From Myxococcota bacterium (GTDB lineage: Bacteria; Myxococcota_A; Polyangia; Polyangiales; Houyiibacteriaceae), in contig JANQQS010000090.1 in the NCBI GenBank assembly GCA_028284955.1, forward strand, positions 1 to 51,519: 51,519 bases of DNA. Direction: 5' to 3'. Below are positions 28,418 to 39,198 of this stretch, piece after piece. Below the pieces are notes generated by a model. It ran no database searches, had not been told where the DNA came from, and was given only the letters and a program-made list of their open reading frames with translations. The position numbers were made by a program, and so were the translations under genes. How positions within the stretch are numbered: the first letter of the stretch is position 1; the number at the start of each line of letters is the position of its first letter.

Positions 28418-29458
28418 CTATCGGCGTGACGTGGGAGCTCGGCCTGCCGGTACGGCGCGGATGCTGCCGCCAAACGATCCGCTGACGCGAAACTGCATCG
28501 AACCGTCCGGTGTTCGTGCGAGGCGAGTTTGTGGATTGAACTCGAGCAATGAGAAAAGGGCTCGGGTGCGGTCGCTTTTTTCTTTGTAGGAGTCGTTGAA
28601 TTTGGATCGGACCAGAAGATCCAGGCGGGTGGCTTTGATTTGTCGCGACAGGCGAATGGTGCCTGAGCCGTCGATTTCTACGTCGGGGCCTTTAGCCGAA
28701 AGCTGCTCGACTTTGGCGTTCCCTTCTTCCGCGGTCGCTCGAAGGGTAAGTGTGCCCGCGCGAATTTTGTCCACCGTGACCCCGTCGCTCATTCCGGGGA
28801 GCTTGAGTTTCGCTTTCCCGTCTCCAAGTTCAACACCGGTGATATCGAGTTCGATGGCACCTGATGTCTCGCTTGCTTCCTCGGCCAGCTGAAGTTCAAT
28901 CGCGCCTCCTGCGGTGCCTGAAACGGGCAAGCCCAGTGCGGAGCGAATGACTCCTAATCTTCGGAATTGAATTTCATCGAGCTCCACGTCGAGTTCGGTT
29001 TCGTCGCCGCTCTGGCTGTAGTCGCCTTCGACCTCACCTCCAGCGAGGGAAGCGTCGAAGCTGAGCGATGTGGTTCCGAAGAGCAACGATAGCAGCGAGA
29101 CTCGGATCGTGGCTTCGTCGATCAGAAGATCGAATGGCGAAGCGTCTGGTTCGAGAGCGGGTTTGGATAGGTGGACGCCGGATAATGTTACACCGGTGAA
29201 AAACGAAGGGCTCAGGTCAACGATCTGCAGTTCGTATCCGCTGGCCTGCCGTCGTCCGGTAGGGCCCATAGGATATTCGACTTCTTGCACGATGTAGTCG
29301 CGCAAGCGTTCGTAAGGGAACGTCCAATAGGCGAATACCAACAGACATGCCAAGAAGAACAAGGCATAGCCGATTTGGGAAAGAATCTTGGTTCGCCCCG
29401 CCTGGAGAAACGACGGCATGAAACGCGACAAGGTCGCCATGGAAACGTTGGATCGCAT
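28418..29458 (-). CDS. gspN: Type II secretion protein GspN
   Basis: The 346-residue product has an N-terminal membrane anchor (ILSQIGYALFFLACLLVFAYW) and a long periplasmic beta-rich part with an AsmA-like flavour (ATIRVSLLSLLFGTTSLSF, LRLSR-type strands). GYELQIVDLSPSFFTGVTLSG is characteristic of the delta-proteobacterial GspN. GspN is an inner-membrane accessory protein of type II secretion. It starts 4 bp after the gspM stop and is the last gene of the operon; a composite hairpin follows. Confidence 0.87.
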   Translation of the reverse strand: MRSNVSMATLSRFMPSFLQAGRTKILSQIGYALFFLACLLVFAYWTFPYERLRDYIVQEVEYPMGPTGRRQASGYELQIVDLSPSFFTGVTLSGVHLSKPALEPDASPFDLLIDEATIRVSLLSLLFGTTSLSFDASLAGGEVEGDYSQSGDETELDVELDEIQFRRLGVIRSALGLPVSGTAGGAIELQLAEEASETSGAIELDITGVELGDGKAKLKLPGMSDGVTVDKIRAGTLTLRATAEEGNAKVEQLSAKGPDVEIDGSGTIRLSRQIKATRLDLLVRSKFNDSYKEKSDRTRALFSLLEFNPQTRLARTPDGSMQFRVSGSFGGSIRAVPAGRAPTSRR

Positions 29459-29462
29459 AAGT

Positions 29463-30077
29463 CTATCGATTTTTTTCCTCGTCCTCGTCCTTCTTGCCTT
29501 TTGTTTTTTCGTAGGAGATCAGGCCCAGTTGCACGTTGTAGGTGTCTCCGGAGCGGAAGTTTTCGATTTGGATTTTCTCGATTGCGACGGGGAGCTGGCT
29601 ATTCTTGATGCTCGCGAACATGAGGATCGCAGGGCGCAGTCCGACTTTGGGCATGGTCGCGCGTACATGTTGTCGCTTGAATCCATCGACAATTTTTTCG
29701 GGCTGGTCGGTCACCTCGCGCAAGCTCAGCTGCTGCTCGCTTGCCTGAGCTTCGACGAAGCTACCGAGCGGAGGCGCAGGGTTCGCGTAGCGACGAATCG
29801 CGGCGGCTCGCTGGGCTTCTCGTTCGGCGAGTTTGCCCTCGGCCTTAGACATTTCTCGAAGTAGTGTGCTGATCTGCTGGTTTTCGGAATCGATGTCCGA
29901 GATCGCCGTGGTCATCAGATACACGGGGAGCAGGATGATGATCGATCCCAGCACCACTGCGAGACCGATGGCTAGCCGCCGCTCTCGCTCGTTGAGGCCT
30001 TCGAAGGCGACGCGCAATCCCGAGGTGGCGCTGTCGAACTTCGAGGCCAATGTCGCCATGAGCTCATTTGCGGTCAC
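29463..30077 (-). CDS. gspM: Type II secretion protein GspM
   Basis: I choose the GTG at 30077: GAGGAA stands just upstream and the start overlaps gspL by 14 bp. The alternative ATG is 30059. The 204-residue product has a short cytoplasmic N terminus, one membrane segment (LAIGLAVVLGSIIILLPVYL), a coiled-coil-like helix (ENQQISTLLREMSKAEGKLA) and a periplasmic ferredoxin-like domain. GspM partners GspL in the inner-membrane platform. The C terminus is a charged tail (KTKGKKDEDEEKNR). Confidence 0.83.
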   Translation of the reverse strand: MTANELMATLASKFDSATSGLRVAFEGLNERERRLAIGLAVVLGSIIILLPVYLMTTAISDIDSENQQISTLLREMSKAEGKLAEREAQRAAAIRRYANPAPPLGSFVEAQASEQQLSLREVTDQPEKIVDGFKRQHVRATMPKVGLRPAILMFASIKNSQLPVAIEKIQIENFRSGDTYNVQLGLISYEKTKGKKDEDEEKNR

Positions 30078-31725
30078 GGTTTTTTCCTCGTTTCTTTCGT
30101 CCGCGCGGCGAGGGGGCATCCGGGCAACGCAACTCGACTTCCAATCGATAGTTGAGTCCCTCGTTTTTCGGTCCGGGAGATGTAGCTCCTCGCTTGATTT
30201 CGTTGAAGCATCGGTGTTCTTCGAGCTTCGCCACGATTTTGTCGCGTTGTGCGATGCTGTCGACGGTCCCGTGAATCTCCATGCGGCCATCGTACGCTTC
30301 GTCGTCTACTTCGATGACGATGCGCCGAGTTTTGTGTTTGATTTCGGATGGAACGGCAGAGGAAACGGCATCCAGCGCGTCGTAGGCATCAAAACGAGGC
30401 AGTGGGTCTGGGTCTTTGCTGCCACCCGCGAACAAGATCCGAGCTTCGTCTACGTCGGTGGTTTCCTTGTCGAAGAGCTCAGCCGTCCGCATCGCGAGCC
30501 GGGCACGTAGCGTCTCGCGCTGCGCGTCGAGCACGTTCCAGCGAGCGAATACAGAAAACATGAACGACACCAACACGAGTGCTGCGCAGGCTCCGATCAG
30601 CTTCGCATGGCGCCTGAGATCCCCAAGCGCGCGCGAGGGAGCAAACTCTCCACGTCGCATATCGATGCGGCGCCCTCGAAGTGCGAGTCGACCTGCTAAC
30701 GCGGTGGCGCGTGCAAAACGCGGTCGATCGCTGTCCGCGGCGCCTGGGAGCGGGGGAAGTGGCAATACCTGCGCCTCGGTGTCGACGATTCGTCCGAGCC
30801 ATTCCGTGGCACTGGGGAGCGACGCTGCTTCGCCGGAAAGAAATACCTGAGTCGGCGTGTCGCCACCGCTCGCACGATAGCTTGACATGCAGCGCCGAAT
30901 CGCGACTTCGATCACTTGTCGACGTGAGGCGCGGACGACGTCCATTCCGCCCGTGACGGTGCGCGCCCACGAGCAACGACCTTGTTCCAGAATACAAACG
31001 TCAGTGGTGGTTTCGTCGATGTTGACGATGAGATTCGGTCCACCTTCTTCGAGCGTCGGGATCACCGTGCTCAGACCATCAAACGCGGGAGCGCCGACCG
31101 CGATTTCCCGCGGTTCGCAACCGATACGGTGCAGCTGGTCGATTTCTTCGGCGACTTGTGTTCTCGGCACCGCCGCTGCGAGCACACGCAGCTCTTTTTC
31201 GGTTTGTTCGACGTGTTGATGGTCGATGACCGCTTCCTCCAATTCGAAGGGGATAAGCGCTTCGACTTCGAAAGGAAGAACTTCGGCTGCTTTTTTGGCG
31301 GCCGCAAGAGGGAGTTCGACCAGGCGAATGGATGCCTTTTGCCCGTCGAGCGCGGTCACCAGCACATTGGCCCGTGGGTGAATCGAGGCGATCATGCTGC
31401 GGATGGCCGCGCGCACCGCTTGCTCGCGCTCAGAGAGCGGAGGATGGATTCCGTCGATCGGCCAGGCCGAGTCGCGCGCGCCAGTTTGGCTTTGTGAGAT
31501 ACCGGGATCTCGCTCAGCGATGGCTTCCGGATCGATCCGCAAGGGTGGAGGCGCGTCGTCCGAGGGAGCGGTGATGTCCTCATCCATGGGCTCAATGGGT
31601 GGCTCAATGGGCGGCTCAATGGGGGTTTCCAAATACTGGAGGAGCTCTGTTTTTCGCATCGCCGTGCGCGCAAGCACGCCACGGATGCGATCGGCTCCAA
31701 TATCGATGCCCAGGATCCGCGCCAT
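30064..31725 (-). CDS. gspL: Type II secretion protein GspL (PilM-like N domain)
   Basis: The 553-residue product starts MARILGIDIGADRIRGVLA, an actin-like ATPase strand-turn-strand as in PilM and GspL. The cytoplasmic part (1-365) has an LDGQKASIRLVELP element and NLIVNIDETTTDVCILE (second phosphate loop). One membrane segment at about 373-397 (KLIGACAALVLVSFMFSVFA) leads to a periplasmic ferredoxin-like domain. An IEPP tandem repeat lies near the N terminus. GspL recruits the GspE ATPase. The gspK stop and the gspL ATG share one base (TGATG at 31725). Confidence 0.88.
   Translation of the reverse strand: MARILGIDIGADRIRGVLARTAMRKTELLQYLETPIEPPIEPPIEPMDEDITAPSDDAPPPLRIDPEAIAERDPGISQSQTGARDSAWPIDGIHPPLSEREQAVRAAIRSMIASIHPRANVLVTALDGQKASIRLVELPLAAAKKAAEVLPFEVEALIPFELEEAVIDHQHVEQTEKELRVLAAAVPRTQVAEEIDQLHRIGCEPREIAVGAPAFDGLSTVIPTLEEGGPNLIVNIDETTTDVCILEQGRCSWARTVTGGMDVVRASRRQVIEVAIRRCMSSYRASGGDTPTQVFLSGEAASLPSATEWLGRIVDTEAQVLPLPPLPGAADSDRPRFARATALAGRLALRGRRIDMRRGEFAPSRALGDLRRHAKLIGACAALVLVSFMFSVFARWNVLDAQRETLRARLAMRTAELFDKETTDVDEARILFAGGSKDPDPLPRFDAYDALDAVSSAVPSEIKHKTRRIVIEVDDEAYDGRMEIHGTVDSIAQRDKIVAKLEEHRCFNEIKRGATSPGPKNEGLNYRLEVELRCPDAPSPRGRKKRGKNRDRK
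31589..31624 (-). repeat. Three tandem 12-bp units in gspL
   Basis: GGCTCAATGGG plus one variable base repeats at 31589-31600, 31601-31612 and 31613-31624. In frame it encodes IEPP in a row, in the loop of the cytoplasmic domain. Confidence 0.85.
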
Positions 31726-33071
31726 CAGTCCACCCGATAGTGGTGAAAAATCCCCAATCCGGTCATGCGGCCCGCATTAGGAGGAGGTGGAGTCCATCGT
31801 TCATGGAAGTTCATCACGGACTGAATGCGTACCTCAGCTCGGCCAACTAGGCCTGTGGAATGAATCGACAGAATTCGTGCCCCGGTGACAAAAGAGCGTT
31901 CAATATCGCGGCGCTGATCGTCCGGAATATTAACGGGACGAAATACGAGCCCGCTGTCCTCTCCAAGGAACCCTTTTAGCATAGGGTAGAGGTCTCGAGG
32001 GCCCCCTTTGCCCTCGATAAAGTTGAGAAAATCAGCCCGCCGGGAGAAAAACGGTACCGGGATAATGCCGCGAACCGTGCTGACGAGCTGTACAAACTTA
32101 GCTCCTTCGGTGGGATCGTCACAGAGCGGCTGGCCGTCTAGAAAAGAGCAAATTCGCGCAAGCAATACGCTGGCTGGAGCCTCATTGGCGTTCACCGCGC
32201 CCGAACCATACACCGTGACCGCGCGGCTGGTGGGGTTCCCTGGCTCAGGCTCGACCAGCGACGCCCAGAAATCGTCGCTCACCCCGCGAATCAGCCGTAT
32301 TTCTTCAAGCGAATCAAAGGGCGCGTTTTTGATTTCGTAGGGAGAATCCAAGCGCTGGTAGATGTTGTCTTCACCTCCCGATTGGGTGATGGAGCCGGCG
32401 CCGGGATCAAACACCGAGCGTTGCGTGTCCTGATCCCACCAGTCGATAAACGCGGAAATCACGTCTTGCCGGGAGGTGAATTGCCCGTCCGCGTCCCGTT
32501 TGCTGAAGAGCGGGTCATAGGCGCTTTGTGCTTGGTATCCGCCGGTGAGGGCAAAGAGCTGCATCGCCACGCTTCGGCGAGCGACGTCGCCACCGAGGGT
32601 CAGCGGCTGGTTCACATTGATTTTGCTGTTTTCGGCAAACGACACCACTTCACATGTGCCTGGCGCGTGGTCCAGCCCTTCCGCGTTGCGCCAGTCAATA
32701 CCTCCTGCGGCGCTGTTCTCCTTCGCATTTTTGTAGTCGCAAAAGGGAGCCAGCAGCTCATTCGCAAAAGACCATACCGGCAACATGGGGGGAGGGCGGC
32801 CCACGAGCAGTTGAAACATGGGGGTGACGATGCGGCGGATCTGAGGTTCTTGCGCCACGAGCAAACGCGTTAGATTGAGTCCGCTCTTGGCCATATATTC
32901 GGCACGCAGCGAGTCGCGTTCGTTGGTGGCAATCGCATGCGCGGTGCTCGTACTCTCGTGCATGTCTGCGAGCACCACGGTGAGGATCGCGACCGCGGAA
33001 ATCGCCATCACCAGCGCCACGCCGTCACGGCGACCGTCTTTTCGATGCTCCATTGTCGCTCGAGTCATCAT
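31725..33071 (-). CDS. gspK: Minor pseudopilin GspK
   Basis: The 448-residue product has a class III leader RRDG with the cut before VALVMAISAVAILTVVLADM. It lacks the usual Glu5, as is normal for GspK, the tip pseudopilin. It has the long inserted helical domain of GspK and the C-terminal TGRIL-like part (ARILSIHSTGLVG, VRIQSVMNF). It overlaps gspJ by ATGA and gspL by one base. GspK caps the pseudopilus with GspI and GspJ. Confidence 0.9.
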   Translation of the reverse strand: MMTRATMEHRKDGRRDGVALVMAISAVAILTVVLADMHESTSTAHAIATNERDSLRAEYMAKSGLNLTRLLVAQEPQIRRIVTPMFQLLVGRPPPMLPVWSFANELLAPFCDYKNAKENSAAGGIDWRNAEGLDHAPGTCEVVSFAENSKINVNQPLTLGGDVARRSVAMQLFALTGGYQAQSAYDPLFSKRDADGQFTSRQDVISAFIDWWDQDTQRSVFDPGAGSITQSGGEDNIYQRLDSPYEIKNAPFDSLEEIRLIRGVSDDFWASLVEPEPGNPTSRAVTVYGSGAVNANEAPASVLLARICSFLDGQPLCDDPTEGAKFVQLVSTVRGIIPVPFFSRRADFLNFIEGKGGPRDLYPMLKGFLGEDSGLVFRPVNIPDDQRRDIERSFVTGARILSIHSTGLVGRAEVRIQSVMNFHERWTPPPPNAGRMTGLGIFHHYRVD

Positions 33072-33772: not shown

Positions 33773-34506
33773 CGCGTCGCTCCCCCGACTCCCGAGTTGC
33801 TTGTGCCTGAACCCACGGAGTTCCCCGTCGACCCGGTGCTCGATTGGCCTGGCGAGGAAGAACCTTCGCCCTGTGTTTGAGACGGATCACCGACCGGATC
33901 GGTTTCCTCGGTCGACGCGGGCTGCTCCGCGACTAGGTACTGCACAACGTCGAAACTCTTTTCCCGAGTTCCTTCTTTCCACTTGATCTCTACCGTCGCG
34001 ACGCGCACCTGCTCTTCGATCGCAGGTTTGAGAATCGGGAACGCAATATTCATTGCCATCTCCGAAATTCCGCCTCCCGCGGAGTCGCCGCTAAGCAGTC
34101 CATCCACCGTCGCGTCCGCGTCTTCACCTTCGGCCTCGGTCAGTTCGCTGAGCGCGTCGGTACTCTCTTCGGTGCCTTCACCCTCTTCTCCAAAGTCGTC
34201 GGGAAGAACGACGCGCTCAATTTTCGACGCGCATTGATATCCCTCGATCTCTGCTCCGTCGCAACAACCGTCTTCCTCGGAATATTCGACGGCAGGCAGC
34301 CCTTCTCGTGCGACATGCTCCTCAAGCTCGGCCATCTTGCAGCGCGCGAGCAGCGTCGCGACCTTCATCTTCCTCGCGCGGTGTGCGGCCTTGATGGCGC
34401 CGCCCTGGGAAGAAAAAATCGCCGTGAGACCAAGCCCGAGGATCGCCACCGCGACCATCACTTCGAGGAGCGTAAAACCTTGCGTGCGATTTCGGTGGCC
34501 GTTCAT
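33769..34506 (-). CDS. gspI: Minor pseudopilin GspI with Ser/Gly tail
   Basis: The 245-residue product has a leader NRTQG with the cut before FTLLEVMVAVAILGLGLTAI; Glu is at +5. The body fits GspI (AELEEHVAREGLPAVE, RVATVEIKWKEG, SFDVVQYLV) but has an acidic insert (EEGEGTEESTDALSELTEAE). The C terminus adds about 50 residues rich in Ser, Gly and Thr (STGSTGNSVGSGTSNSGVGG), unusual for this family and likely disordered. It overlaps gspH and gspJ by 4 bp on either side. Confidence 0.88.
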   Translation of the reverse strand: MNGHRNRTQGFTLLEVMVAVAILGLGLTAIFSSQGGAIKAAHRARKMKVATLLARCKMAELEEHVAREGLPAVEYSEEDGCCDGAEIEGYQCASKIERVVLPDDFGEEGEGTEESTDALSELTEAEGEDADATVDGLLSGDSAGGGISEMAMNIAFPILKPAIEEQVRVATVEIKWKEGTREKSFDVVQYLVAEQPASTEETDPVGDPSQTQGEGSSSPGQSSTGSTGNSVGSGTSNSGVGGATR

Positions 34507-35285
34507 CCTGGGTCTCGAAGGCCTTCGTCTTCGTCTTCATCGAAGAGCTGCTCGGGTTCGTATTCCTCGGTGTGCACCGTACCTCGGCCGGTCAGCGCGT
34601 CGAGTTCAACCGTGTAGATGGTTCCGCGAGGGTCCGTGAGTTGTACCGCGGCGTGTTGTGTGAATCCTCCCGGGAAAAAGTAGATGGCGGTGCTTCCTTG
34701 TTCCCGCGGCTCCTCTTCGTGAGGTGTGTACACGCGGGTGAGGCGGACGCCGTCTGCGATCGCAGATGGGGTGTATTTTTTGAGCACGTTTCCGTTGATC
34801 CCGCGCATGGGCGAGAAAGGCGAACGTCCGTACGAAGGCTCGAACGTTTCTTCGAGCCGCGCTTTGGCTGCAGCCCATGGGTCTACTCCGGCGCCCGTTT
34901 CGGAATCTTCTTCGTTTCTATCTTCGTCTGAGCGCGCGAGCGTGACCTCGCCTTGCGCCTCTTCAAGCGACATCTTGTGTTCATCAAGATCGAGCACAAG
35001 ACGCACGGTGGTTCCTCGAGAAACCGCGCGGCTATAGGCAAAACGTGCCGCGGATACGATGCGCATGCATCCACTGCGAAGCTTGGTGCGGGTGAGCGCG
35101 CCAAACGCCATCGTGCTCCCCGCGGTAACCAGGGCGAGCAGAGCGATCACGACCATGATTTCGATCAGGGTGAACGCCCGCTCGCGCTGGCTGCGAGAGC
35201 GCGATGCGTTTCCGGAGAGGGCCCCCTTTCCAGCGAGGCCCGTCTTCTCCGAGAAAGCAATTCCGCGGTGGACGGTTTCGATCAA
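34503..35285 (-). CDS. gspH: Minor pseudopilin GspH
   Basis: I set the start at a TTG (35285) that overlaps the gspG stop as TTGA, with GGAGG about 10 bp upstream; the product is 260 residues. The leader ends RERA and the mature part starts FTLIEIMVVIALLALVTAG with Glu5. The residue before the cut is Ala rather than Gly, a tolerated but uncommon choice. GspH features are RIVSAARFAYSRAVSRGTTVRLVLDL. The C-terminal part has the strands TAIYFFPGGFTQHAAVQL. It overlaps gspI by ATGA. Confidence 0.87.
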   Translation of the reverse strand: MIETVHRGIAFSEKTGLAGKGALSGNASRSRSQRERAFTLIEIMVVIALLALVTAGSTMAFGALTRTKLRSGCMRIVSAARFAYSRAVSRGTTVRLVLDLDEHKMSLEEAQGEVTLARSDEDRNEEDSETGAGVDPWAAAKARLEETFEPSYGRSPFSPMRGINGNVLKKYTPSAIADGVRLTRVYTPHEEEPREQGSTAIYFFPGGFTQHAAVQLTDPRGTIYTVELDALTGRGTVHTEEYEPEQLFDEDEDEGLRDPG

Positions 35286-35683
35286 GGGATGTCGTCCTCC
35301 GACCCAAATTGGCCATCGGGTCCGGCCGACAGCACCGCTACATTGTCGCCGTCGCACTCAATCTGAAACTCGTTGCCCCAGGCGTCGGTGGTGCTCTTGC
35401 TTTTGTCGAGATAGTCACCGCTCACGAGGGCTTCGGTGGTTGGGCATTCGCCGCCCGCGTTCTCGGCGAGATAAAGAACCGATGCTGCGCGAACAGACTG
35501 TGCGTCGGTGCCGGTTTGCTTAATGCGCGACTTCTTCAACTGAGGAAGAACTGCGACGCCTACGGCAGTGCCGATTGCGGCGATGATGATCACGACGATC
35601 ATCACCTCAAACAGCGTCATGCCTGAGTTGCGCAGTCGCGAAATGCTTCGGGTACGATGGAAAGGGTGTTGTTCGTTTGTCAT
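35282..35683 (-). CDS. gspG: Major pseudopilin GspG
   Basis: The 133-residue product starts at ATG 35683, with GGAGG at good spacing. A 21-residue leader ends NSG, cut before MTLFEVMIVVIIIAAIGTA. Position +1 is Met instead of the usual Phe; Glu5 is kept. The rest matches GspG: DAQSVRAASVLYLAENAG, DYLDKSKSTTDAWGNEFQIEC, and the C-terminal calcium loop SAGPDGQFGSEDDI. GspG is the main subunit of the pseudopilus. A GspG-like gene precedes it by 17 bp. Confidence 0.93.
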   Translation of the reverse strand: MTNEQHPFHRTRSISRLRNSGMTLFEVMIVVIIIAAIGTAVGVAVLPQLKKSRIKQTGTDAQSVRAASVLYLAENAGGECPTTEALVSGDYLDKSKSTTDAWGNEFQIECDGDNVAVLSAGPDGQFGSEDDIP

Positions 35684-35700: not shown

Positions 35701-36126
35701 TCATTGAATGTTGTCGTCCACGTGGAACGAGCCGCTCGGGCCCGCCGATATCACGTCGATGTCGCCCTGCTGAATTGGGCTCGGGCATCGGATCTTCAAG
35801 CGCCGCCCCCAGCCGTCCCTTGGCATCTCTCGTAGATACCGGCGGTGGGTGTGGGGAGGATGCGAAAGTTCGGTGGATGATCTCGGGCATCGCTCTTCCC
35901 GGTCGCGAAACGCGTGCGCGGCGCCTCGCACGTCGCGGATGGCGATGCGGGTGGCGCGGATTCGCCGCTGCTTTTCGGCGCTTCGAGAGAGAAAAACAAA
36001 CGCCGCGGCGGTGATCCCCACCAGACCGATGGTGCGCCATCGCGAGCCAGCAAAAAGGGCATGCAACCATCTCTTGCGCTGCTCCCAAGGAAGCGCGATA
36101 CCGCGTTTTTTTCGTCGACGCCTCAT
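35701..36126 (-). CDS. GspG-like membrane protein without prepilin leader
   Basis: The 141-residue product starts MRRRRKKRGIALPWEQRKRW, a strongly basic N terminus, then one membrane segment (about 32-50, TIGLVGITAAAFVFLSRSA). The C-terminal third copies the end of GspG: DGWGRRLKIRC and VISAGPSGSFHVDDNI beside DAWGNEFQIEC and VLSAGPDGQFGSEDDI in the neighbour. It has no G-FTLIE prepilin site, so the prepilin peptidase should not cut it. It overlaps gspF by ATGA and stands 17 bp before gspG. I infer a gspG duplicate turned into an anchored assembly or regulatory factor. Confidence 0.8.
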   Translation of the reverse strand: MRRRRKKRGIALPWEQRKRWLHALFAGSRWRTIGLVGITAAAFVFLSRSAEKQRRIRATRIAIRDVRGAAHAFRDREERCPRSSTELSHPPHTHRRYLREMPRDGWGRRLKIRCPSPIQQGDIDVISAGPSGSFHVDDNIQ

Positions 36127-37346
36127 TCCACAAACTCGTTGAGTTGAAGCAGCGGCATGAGAATCGAAAACGCGATTCCCGCGACGGTTCCGCCCATCAC
36201 CACGATGATGAGAGGTTCAATGAGCGAGGTCATCGCGGTCACTCGGTTGTCGATTTGCTGATCGTACGCGGCCGCGACGTGTTCGAGCATCTCCTCGAGC
36301 TGCCCCGAGCGCTCACCGATCGCGATCATATGGGTTACGATGGGCGGAAACCGTCCGCTTTGGCGCAACGGCTTGGCGATGCCCTCGCCCTCGCGAACGC
36401 TACTCTGGGCTTCTGCAACCACCCGCATCAGCTCTTCGTTTCCGAGTACGTTGCGGGTGATGTCCATCGCGGTGAGCACCGGGACCCCGCTACGCAACAA
36501 CGTTGCGAGCGTGCGCGAAAAACGAGAGACCGCCACCATGATGGTAAGCGCTCCAAAGAGCGGGAACTTCAGCACCGCTTCATCCCAGCGTTTTCGCCCG
36601 GCATCGGAGGCGAGCCATTTGCGAAACCACCAGATGCCGAGCCCCATCAACGCTCCGAGCAGCCACCAGTAGTTGCTCACGACGTTGCTCACCCAGATCA
36701 GCAGCTGTGTGTACCAGGGGAGCGTTTGTTGAAAACTCTCAAAAATCGATGTGACTTTGGGGACGACGACCACCATCATGAGCGCGAGAATGCCGATGCC
36801 GGTCACCGCCATGAATCCCGGGTAGTACAAGGCGCTTTGCACCTTGCTGCGAAGGCGCGCCTGGCTTTCTAAAAAATCGGCCAGCCGAGCCAGCACTGTT
36901 TCGAGCGTGCCGGAAGCCTCGCCCGCCGCAACCATGTTGACGTAGAGGCCTGAGAAAATCTTGGGATGCGCCTTGAGCGCGTTGGCGAAGCTCTCGCCTT
37001 CGTTGACGCGATCGCGGCTCGCGGTGAACGCGGCCTGTAAATCTGGTTGTTCCAGTTGTTCGATGAGCGCGCTGAGCGCTTCCACAAGAGGAATTCCGGA
37101 GCGCAAGAGCACGGCCAGCTGCCGGGTCGCCATGGAGATTTCCGCGGCGCCAACGCGGCGAAAAATCTTGGCCAAATCAATGTCGCGTGCTTTGCGCCGA
37201 GCTGCCTCGTTCTGCTCGAGCACCTCGGTTACCATCACGCCATCGCGTTTGAGCACCGCGCGCAGCGCTTTGGGGCTATCGGCGTCGCGCATGCCTTTGA
37301 CGTTTTTGCCTCGACGGTCGACGCCGCGGTATGCGTAGACACCCAT
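36123..37346 (-). CDS. gspF: Type II secretion inner-membrane protein GspF
   Basis: The 407-residue product starts MGVYAYRGVDRRGKNVKG, the standard GspF opening. Two T2SSF domains are present, with membrane segments (GIGILALMMVVVVPKVTSIF, LLGALMGLGIWWF, IIVVMGGTVAGIAFSILMPLL). MVAAGEASGTLETVLARLAD and MIAIGERSGQLEEMLEHVA are the paired signature of the family. GspF is the platform protein contacted by GspE. It starts 25 bp after gspE and overlaps the GspG-like gene. Confidence 0.95.
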   Translation of the reverse strand: MGVYAYRGVDRRGKNVKGMRDADSPKALRAVLKRDGVMVTEVLEQNEAARRKARDIDLAKIFRRVGAAEISMATRQLAVLLRSGIPLVEALSALIEQLEQPDLQAAFTASRDRVNEGESFANALKAHPKIFSGLYVNMVAAGEASGTLETVLARLADFLESQARLRSKVQSALYYPGFMAVTGIGILALMMVVVVPKVTSIFESFQQTLPWYTQLLIWVSNVVSNYWWLLGALMGLGIWWFRKWLASDAGRKRWDEAVLKFPLFGALTIMVAVSRFSRTLATLLRSGVPVLTAMDITRNVLGNEELMRVVAEAQSSVREGEGIAKPLRQSGRFPPIVTHMIAIGERSGQLEEMLEHVAAAYDQQIDNRVTAMTSLIEPLIIVVMGGTVAGIAFSILMPLLQLNEFVE

Positions 37347-37371
37347 CAGCGGCCTCGCTTTCGCCGCCGCA

Positions 37372-39198
37372 TCATCCGGCCTCCGACTCGCCCGCCTGCG
37401 TGGCCGCGAGCACCTCGTCGACGCTGGTGACGCCGGCGATGACTTGCCGCGCTCCATCCTCACGAAGCAGGCGCATTCCCTGCCGGCAAGCCACTCGCTG
37501 GATGGTCTTCGAATCGCTGTTCTTCAAGATCTCCCGACGAACAGGCTCGTCGATAACCATCATTTCGAAGATGCCGAGACGGCCGCGATAGCCGGTATGG
37601 CTGCATTCGTCGCAGCCTCGCGCGCGAAAAAAAACAGGAAGCGTGGGATCGCCGCCGAGGTTCGATGATTCGAACTCCGGCGGACGCACGAGCGTGGGGG
37701 CGTCTTCGAGTTCGCCGCTCGCATTTTTGGACTGCCCGAGCACGGTCGTAGCGGCGACCTGCTTGAGCGCGGAAATGGTTTCGTTGATGTGGTCGGTATC
37801 GACGCCGAGTTCAATGAGGTCTTCCCGAGTCGCGCGATAGGGTTCTTTGCAGCGGGAGCAAAGCTGGCGAACCAAGCGCTGGGCAAGCACCGCCATCACC
37901 GACGACGAAATTTGGAACGGCTGAATGCCCATATCGACGAGTCGCGTAATGGCCCCCGGCGCGTCGTTGGTGTGAAGCGTGGAAAGTACGAGGTGGCCGG
38001 TAAGCGAGGCGTGAATGGCAATATCCGCGGTTTCATGGTCGCGAATCTCACCGACCATGATCACATCAGGGTCTTGACGCAGAAAGCTACGCAGGCCAGA
38101 GGCGAACGTGAGCCCGATTTTGGGCTGAATCTGCATTTGCCCAATGCCCCCGAGCTCATATTCGACGGGGTCTTCAACGGTGAGGATGTTTTTGTCCGGG
38201 GTGTTGATCTTGTTGAGTGCGCCATAGAGCGTCGTCGTTTTTCCTGAGCCGGTGGGCCCGGTAACTAGAATGATCCCGTTCGGTCGTGCGACGAGATATT
38301 CGAACGTCTCAAGTTCCGCGCGCGCGAAACCGAGGTCGGCGAGGTCCAGCAAAATGTTTTGTTTGTCGAGCAAACGCATGACCACGCGCTCTCCGCGCGC
38401 GGTGGGAATGGTGGAGACGCGAACGTCGACGACCTTGCCGCGAATCTTTTTGGTGATGCGGCCGTCCTGAGGAAGACGTTTTTCCGCGATATTCAGTCCC
38501 GCTTCGATTTTTACGCGCGCGACGATCGACGACAGAAAACCTCGGTTCGCTTCTTTGCGATGGAACAGCCGGCCATCAATGCGATAGCGGACCACGACTT
38601 TGTCTTCGGCCGGCTCGATATGAATATCCGACGCGCGGTCCTGCACGGCGGTGTAGAAAAGGTTGTTTACCCAGCGAATGACCGGAGCTTCATCGGTCAT
38701 GTCGATCAGGTCGCGAAGTTCTTCTTCCTCTTCTCCTTCTTTGGCCTCAGCGAGCGCGGTTTCGTCTTTGCGTTCATAGACGCGGTTGATTGCGTCATCG
38801 ATGGCGTCCGCGGGCGCAGCCACCGCCTGCACGGGAACGCCAAGAAGCGCTCGCACATCGTCGAGCGGAAATAGGTCGAGAGGGTTGGCGAGCGCGATGG
38901 TGACCGAGCCTGCGTCGTCTCGAATGGGCAACACGTGATGCTGTCGGGCGAAATTGATGGGAACGCGATCGATCAAGTGCTCGGGGATCTGGTCCGCGTC
39001 GATCTGCGCGACAAACGGCATATCGACCTCTTCGGCCAGCGCACGGACCAACGGTTCCGCTTCGACGGCGCGAATGGCGAGCAATACATCCACCAGACTC
39101 AAACCTCGTTCGTCGGCCGCGGTCAGATAGTCTGACACTTTCTCCGGGGCCAAGACCCCTCGACGAACCAACACATCAGCGGTGTACTGTTGTTCCAC
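37372..39198 (-). CDS. gspE: Type II secretion ATPase GspE with enlarged zinc region
   Basis: The 608-residue secretion ATPase has an N-terminal GspE-N domain (1-130), the N2 domain, and the RecA-type core: Walker A GPTGSGKT (314-321), Asp box DIHIEPAE, Walker B VIMVGEIRD and His box LSTLHTNDA. A four-Cys zinc module is present as CSRC (447-450) and CDEC (529-532). The gap of 78 residues between the pairs is much longer than the 29 or so typical of the family, because of an Ala/Ser/Glu-rich insert with GQSKNASGELEDAPT. GspE powers pseudopilus assembly at the GspL/F platform. Confidence 0.95.
   Translation of the reverse strand: MEQQYTADVLVRRGVLAPEKVSDYLTAADERGLSLVDVLLAIRAVEAEPLVRALAEEVDMPFVAQIDADQIPEHLIDRVPINFARQHHVLPIRDDAGSVTIALANPLDLFPLDDVRALLGVPVQAVAAPADAIDDAINRVYERKDETALAEAKEGEEEEELRDLIDMTDEAPVIRWVNNLFYTAVQDRASDIHIEPAEDKVVVRYRIDGRLFHRKEANRGFLSSIVARVKIEAGLNIAEKRLPQDGRITKKIRGKVVDVRVSTIPTARGERVVMRLLDKQNILLDLADLGFARAELETFEYLVARPNGIILVTGPTGSGKTTTLYGALNKINTPDKNILTVEDPVEYELGGIGQMQIQPKIGLTFASGLRSFLRQDPDVIMVGEIRDHETADIAIHASLTGHLVLSTLHTNDAPGAITRLVDMGIQPFQISSSVMAVLAQRLVRQLCSRCKEPYRATREDLIELGVDTDHINETISALKQVAATTVLGQSKNASGELEDAPTLVRPPEFESSNLGGDPTLPVFFRARGCDECSHTGYRGRLGIFEMMVIDEPVRREILKNSDSKTIQRVACRQGMRLLREDGARQVIAGVTSVDEVLAATQAGESEAG

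Follow-up and report, generated by a model that had tools for sequence, protein, structure and literature searches.

We have found that a Myxococcota bacterium encodes, between the genes for the T2SS platform protein GspF and the major pseudopilin GspG, a second GspG-like membrane protein that has no prepilin cleavage site. This protein, here called X, is conserved in nearly every relative in the order. We propose, with about even confidence, that X is an old GspG paralog that now stays in the inner membrane for good as a subunit of the T2SS assembly platform, with its head on GspG and its tail on a platform protein. The gene lies in contig JANQQS010000090.1 of assembly GCA_028284955.1 (GTDB lineage Bacteria; Myxococcota_A; Polyangia; Polyangiales; Houyiibacteriaceae), and the window referred to below is the whole stretch analysed, positions 1 to 51,519 of that contig. 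The features of the window that concern us here are the following.

37372..39198, minus strand: gspE ATPase, named from its translation and its position ahead of gspF
36123..37463, minus strand: gspF, T2SS platform protein (Pfam T2SSF, 3.7e-62)
36123..36126, minus strand: ATGA, 4 bp in which gspF ends and X begins (sequence)
35701..36126, minus strand: X, GspG-like membrane protein without a prepilin site, 141 aa (ORF, Pfam, BLASTP, AlphaFold2)
36070..36126, minus strand: X residues 1-19, basic tail, predicted to be cytoplasmic, with LPWE at residues 12-15 (column counts)
35896..36045, minus strand: X residues 28-77, continuous predicted helix, comprising the membrane segment and a pilin-type alpha-1 (AlphaFold2, alignment to GspG structures)
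35704..35895, minus strand: X residues 78-141, GspG-like head, predicted to be periplasmic, with Cys80/Cys114 and the C-terminal loop SAGPSG...DDN (alignment)
35282..35683, minus strand: gspG, true major pseudopilin with a G-MTLFE prepilin site (Pfam T2SSG and N_methyl)
34503..35222, minus strand: gspH-like pseudopilin (Pfam GspH and N_methyl)
31725-33071: GspK-like gene of the window (Pfam search)
30064..31725, minus strand: gspL, with a PilM-like cytoplasmic part (Pfam PilM_2 4e-8, T2SSL 0.005)

X is read on the minus strand, from 36126 to 35701, and starts with an ATG that is the earliest start codon past the upstream in-frame stop; the protein is MRRRRKKRGIALPWEQRKRWLHALFAGSRWRTIGLVGITAAAFVFLSRSAEKQRRIRATRIAIRDVRGAAHAFRDREERCPRSSTELSHPPHTHRRYLREMPRDGWGRRLKIRCPSPIQQGDIDVISAGPSGSFHVDDNIQ. 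An earlier note on this DNA had placed the gene between gspF and gspG with a 4-bp overlap with gspF, and the ATGA shared by the two genes confirms this arrangement. The gspG ATG follows at 35683, 17 nt past the X stop, and is preceded by GGAGG. Around X the same strand carries a T2SS set made up of gspC (GspC_delta), gspE, gspF, X itself, gspG, gspH, gspI/J/K-type genes, the PilM-like gspL and gspN. The cluster ends with this last gene (28418-29458, minus strand), whose product belongs with the Leptospira-type GspN proteins (match to NCBIfam TIGR04411 at 1.1e-52). In the GspH-like pseudopilin (34503-35222, minus strand), Ala replaces Gly at position -1 (ERAFTLIE).

By the signal that defines the class, X is not a pseudopilin. 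The Pfam prepilin model N_methyl recognises the true GspG and has no match in X, no prepilin-type motif occurs in the X frame under any start codon, and an aligned Gly(-1)/Glu(+5) pair is found in none of the 57 X orthologs. The earlier note had named a functional prepilin site under a different start as a finding that would speak against its description; there is none in the frame, and an alternative start restoring such a site is ruled out, as the ATG is the first after the stop and the frame is without the motif. We also searched with a relaxed pattern, GxxxxE ahead of a mostly hydrophobic stretch, in which the hydrophobicity filter was loose. This gave 6 scattered matches in the 57 X orthologs versus 79 of the 79 GspG proteins; the six lie off the GspG site, and those inspected are broken by charged residues. 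When sequence and structural alignments are taken together, residue 24 of X corresponds approximately to position +1 of mature GspG and residue 28 to Glu5. Near this Glu5-equivalent position Arg29 is almost invariant (46/57 X orthologs), and X has basic residues where the hydrophobic helix of a prepilin would start. One prepilin peptidase was detected in the genome, so the processing enzyme is present. Cleavage by signal peptidase I or as a lipoprotein was also considered and set aside: a lipobox is absent from the X of the window, and a small-x-small pattern was not consistent when judged by eye. The basic N-terminus, the one membrane segment and the lack of a cleavage site support the earlier proposal of a membrane-anchored protein, and anchoring, which we predict to be permanent, is well supported at the level of sequence.

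What X does share with GspG extends along much of the protein. In the Pfam search residues 53-133 reach 25 bits with T2SSG, where the cut-off is 21 (E = 2e-5), and BLASTP aligns X with the neighbouring GspG at 30% identity over 94 aa (E = 6e-9). Together with the absence of an N_methyl match and the motif search in the 57 orthologs, these matches bear out the description of X as a GspG-like protein without a prepilin site. The resemblance to the C-terminal end of GspG on which that description was based is real, but it is not confined to this end: since the BLASTP alignment covers 94 aa, the likeness also spans the amphipathic helix. Against the NCBIfam equivalog TIGR01710, X scores 21.1 bits where the cut-off is 88.85, a threshold that the real GspG of the window also falls below (40.9 bits). 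The AlphaFold2 model of the window's X, built with 20 orthologs, has a mean pLDDT of 83 and a pTM of 0.65, and consists of a tail helix (13-26), one helix spanning 28-77 and then a small sheet. The top Foldseek match for the model is E. coli GspG, and superposition on V. cholerae GspG (3fu1) gives Z 11.3 and 2.0 Å over 89 residues (VIA-align); the GspG of the window, modelled as a control, comes out with lower confidence than X (pLDDT 74) and reaches Z ≤9.8 against GspG structures. The structure prediction and superposition that had been suggested for X thus return a GspG-type pilin fold, as modelled, and not the unrelated fold that the note had named as its other possible counter-evidence. 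From the basic tail and the one helix at 28-77, X is predicted to be a single-pass anchor with a cytoplasmic N-terminus and a head on the periplasmic side.

X also carries conserved features of its own. In non-redundant orthologs the predicted cytoplasmic tail contains the motif [LFM]PWE (P13 in 38/46, W14 in 39/46 and E15 in 39/46), whose conservation exceeds that of the membrane segment. PWE sits within the part that a prepilin peptidase would cut off, and this position offers a reason why the prepilin site was lost and has been kept lost. Some X orthologs are without PWE (f17, f18, f2 and genus g34), so docking via this motif would not be universal. The head of X, too, departs from GspG. 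With PulG numbering transferred by alignment, the window's X has S/D/N at D117, D124 and D125, which are the calcium ligands of GspG, and its calcium-loop equivalent has thereby changed D117 to S and D125 to N. X orthologs mostly have S/D/N or D/D/R at these positions, with all three Asp in 1/57; in the GspG comparison, the pattern S.G.D...DD[IV] is found in 69/79. Mutating the calcium-site aspartates of GspG impairs the T2SS (review PMC10574481). The Cys80/Cys114 pair of X is also present in the local GspGs, which suggests, from the sequences, a disulfide in both proteins and a common origin. Cys80, Pro81, Asp104, Ser127 and Gly129 are invariant or near-invariant in X, and an HPP...YL loop is conserved as well.

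Most genomes from the family and order of this bacterium have an ortholog of X, as a rule 41-51% identical. The earlier note had proposed searching relatives for the same arrangement, and across 132 genomes of the order, each at least 90% complete, a profile search (E < 1e-10) found an ortholog in 126, in single copy and usually between gspF and gspG. Among the misses, G090 has an ortholog just under the cut-off, and G012, G020, G027 and G046 are without a detectable T2SS gspG (within these four, gspF runs past the end of its contig in two and there is no close T2SS gspF in two). The sole checked miss in which gspF is directly followed by gspG and X is absent is G008 (L119), a natural knockout of X that could be used for comparison. 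Beyond the order, two families of the class, f17 and f18, have X as well, likewise between gspF and gspG, and most other families of the phylum that we examined have gspF and then an ordinary GspG. Named loci in the comparison are those of Sandaracinus, Sandaracinaceae, Polyangiaceae and Myxococcales. Conservation over an order excludes a chance ORF, and as nearly every relative in the order has it, X is probably a fixed part of the T2SS.

The coupling of X to gspF is close in most loci: in 23/29 the distance between the gspF stop and the start of X is -4 to +12 nt, with start codons of our own choosing. A different layout is seen in genus g21, whose small genomes (L127, L128 and L129; G042 and G047) have T2SS genes dispersed over several contigs. 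In G042, gspF, X and a gspG-H-I-J group are on three separate contigs, and because X is apart from gspF there, the linkage of the two genes is not strict. In G047, gspF adjoins X, gspL lies beside gspF on the opposite strand, and gspG is on a different contig. In these two layouts X is thus retained though detached from gspG, in one case beside platform genes. An RNase III-like gene adjoins X in both genomes, in G047 directly after X.

We built a tree from 108 domains of X and GspG over 132 columns. A branch with weak support (75/84) sets 43 X proteins apart from all GspGs, and the GspGs from X-bearing genomes form one group (99/90). By this split, X would be an old GspG paralog rather than a recent copy of each neighbour; the deep branching is uncertain, as there are 132 columns for 108 rows. 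One of the 43 X rows is a lipoprotein-like protein (L115) on a long branch and of unsure placement. This short protein (L115:2408-2812, minus strand, genome G068) has a lipobox-like LLLAGC at its start, resembles GspG in its C-terminal part, and is possibly a lipoprotein-anchored GspG head. A separate case is G364 (f22; L105:2771-3209, also L113), in which a second GspG-like copy after gspG has lost the prepilin motif. This copy is sister to its own GspG (100/98), and its motif loss is independent of that in X, a convergent loss of cleavage.

How might such a protein act? The partner and role that we infer for X are these. X would not be pulled into the pseudopilus and would remain in the inner membrane, because its leader is not removable and Glu5 is missing. 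Its tail would lie in the cytoplasm, docking on GspF, GspL or GspE, and its head in the periplasm would meet GspG sideways. At the foot of the growing pseudopilus, the head would in this way place or hold the GspG that arrives, or else the last subunit. Prepilins need processing before assembly, and in filaments the partner of Glu5 is the N-terminal amine of the subunit beside it (review PMC10191384). Of the roles that the earlier note had offered as conjectures, cap, regulator or decoy, a tip cap is unlikely: without cleavage, a subunit would not be expected to join the filament. Two-hybrid assays show GspG binding to GspF, with the bacterial proteins as with the mitochondrial ones (PMC8134430), which makes a contact of X on the GspF side plausible.

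The main rival to a platform subunit, and an unlikely one in our judgement, is that X serves as a terminator or decoy: it would mimic GspG at the growth site and, being unextractable, stall or limit elongation, so as to set the length of the pseudopilus or reset the machine at each stroke. The GspG-like head, the changed calcium loop, the loss of Glu5 and the near-invariant Arg would all suit such a brake. So would sub-stoichiometric X, which a weaker ribosome-binding match than that of gspG would mean; the mean longest match is 3.2 for X versus 4.6 for gspG, in the direction of more GspG, in a comparison that is biased because the best among several gspG starts was used. A pure brake, however, would be expected to disappear more readily than an obligate subunit, and X is in nearly all T2SS-bearing genomes of the order; the conserved cytoplasmic PWE requires a partner. 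A constitutive platform subunit fits the evidence better than a decoy, because of the PWE motif, the coupling to gspF, the association with gspF and gspL in G047, and the retention of one copy of X wherever the T2SS is kept.

It is also rather improbable that X is an adaptor with no direct role at GspG, its anchored head recruiting lineage-specific substrates or joining the platform to GspC/GspD. The conserved HPP...YL loop and Cys pair, and the persistence of X although its calcium site is altered, could be read in this way, but we have no link from X to substrates, and the fold and gene order indicate the platform and the pseudopilus. There is a slim chance that X is a true minor pseudopilin, processed by another peptidase, or cut non-canonically close to the membrane boundary, and then incorporated. 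Such a protein would be expected to look like X in its complete pilin fold and retained alpha-1 length, and GxxxxE strings are scattered near the tail in a few orthologs; but X is without the aligned Gly/Glu and has basic residues at the helix start, cleavage would discard its conserved tail, and we detected just one prepilin peptidase in this genome. That X is without function, as a decaying gspG duplicate or an annotation artefact, is hardly credible. It has lost the GspG cleavage site and calcium ligands, but the frame is open and one-copy, the identity in the family and order is that given above, and there are near-invariant residues and a new motif of its own. Conservation across the order rules out a pseudogene.

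A platform subunit with a pilin head would combine traits of two known groups of proteins. X resembles GspG / PulG / EpsG (PF08334 T2SSG) in its predicted fold, alpha-1 length, domain match and gene neighbourhood, and the local GspG in its Cys pair, but it is without a prepilin site or Glu5, keeps a conserved tail, has a broken calcium triad and forms a separate old branch. With GspL / GspM / GspC and T4P PilN it shares a predicted N-in single pass, with the head in the periplasm and, on the cytoplasmic side, a short motif that is conserved. These platform proteins have ferredoxin-like or PDZ/HR domains, whereas the head of X is a pilin. PilN of these genomes begins (R)INLLP, which loosely resembles the [IVF]x[LFM]PWE of X, a weak and partial likeness that we keep as a lead; the N-terminal INLLP peptide of PilN docks in PilM. 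The GspL of the window retains its own juxtamembrane segment. Like X, the tip pseudopilin GspK is without Glu5 and is the known exception in this respect, but its leader is cleavable. The mitochondria of jakobids and heteroloboseans have GspG homologs, and GspO is not identifiable there; like X, these homologs have an N-terminal extension, but unlike X they keep Glu5 and processing features and are probably processed (PMC8134430).

The domain, the fold and the machine are thus already known. The new part is that a GspG paralog which is conserved and uncleavable forms a component of the T2SS throughout an order; we found no description of this in the open literature searched. For annotation, this means that a T2SSG-domain assignment would count two 'GspG' genes at this locus, of which only one has the pseudopilin signal. 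For the machine itself, we tentatively entertain the rather doubtful idea of a Polyangiales-type T2SS with a stationary pilin-fold platform subunit, whose tail would be held by the motor or platform and whose head would be a fixed template or base for GspG addition. X could be either the docking partner of GspG or its built-in brake, and it provides a handle on how the T2SS platform selects and holds GspG before insertion.
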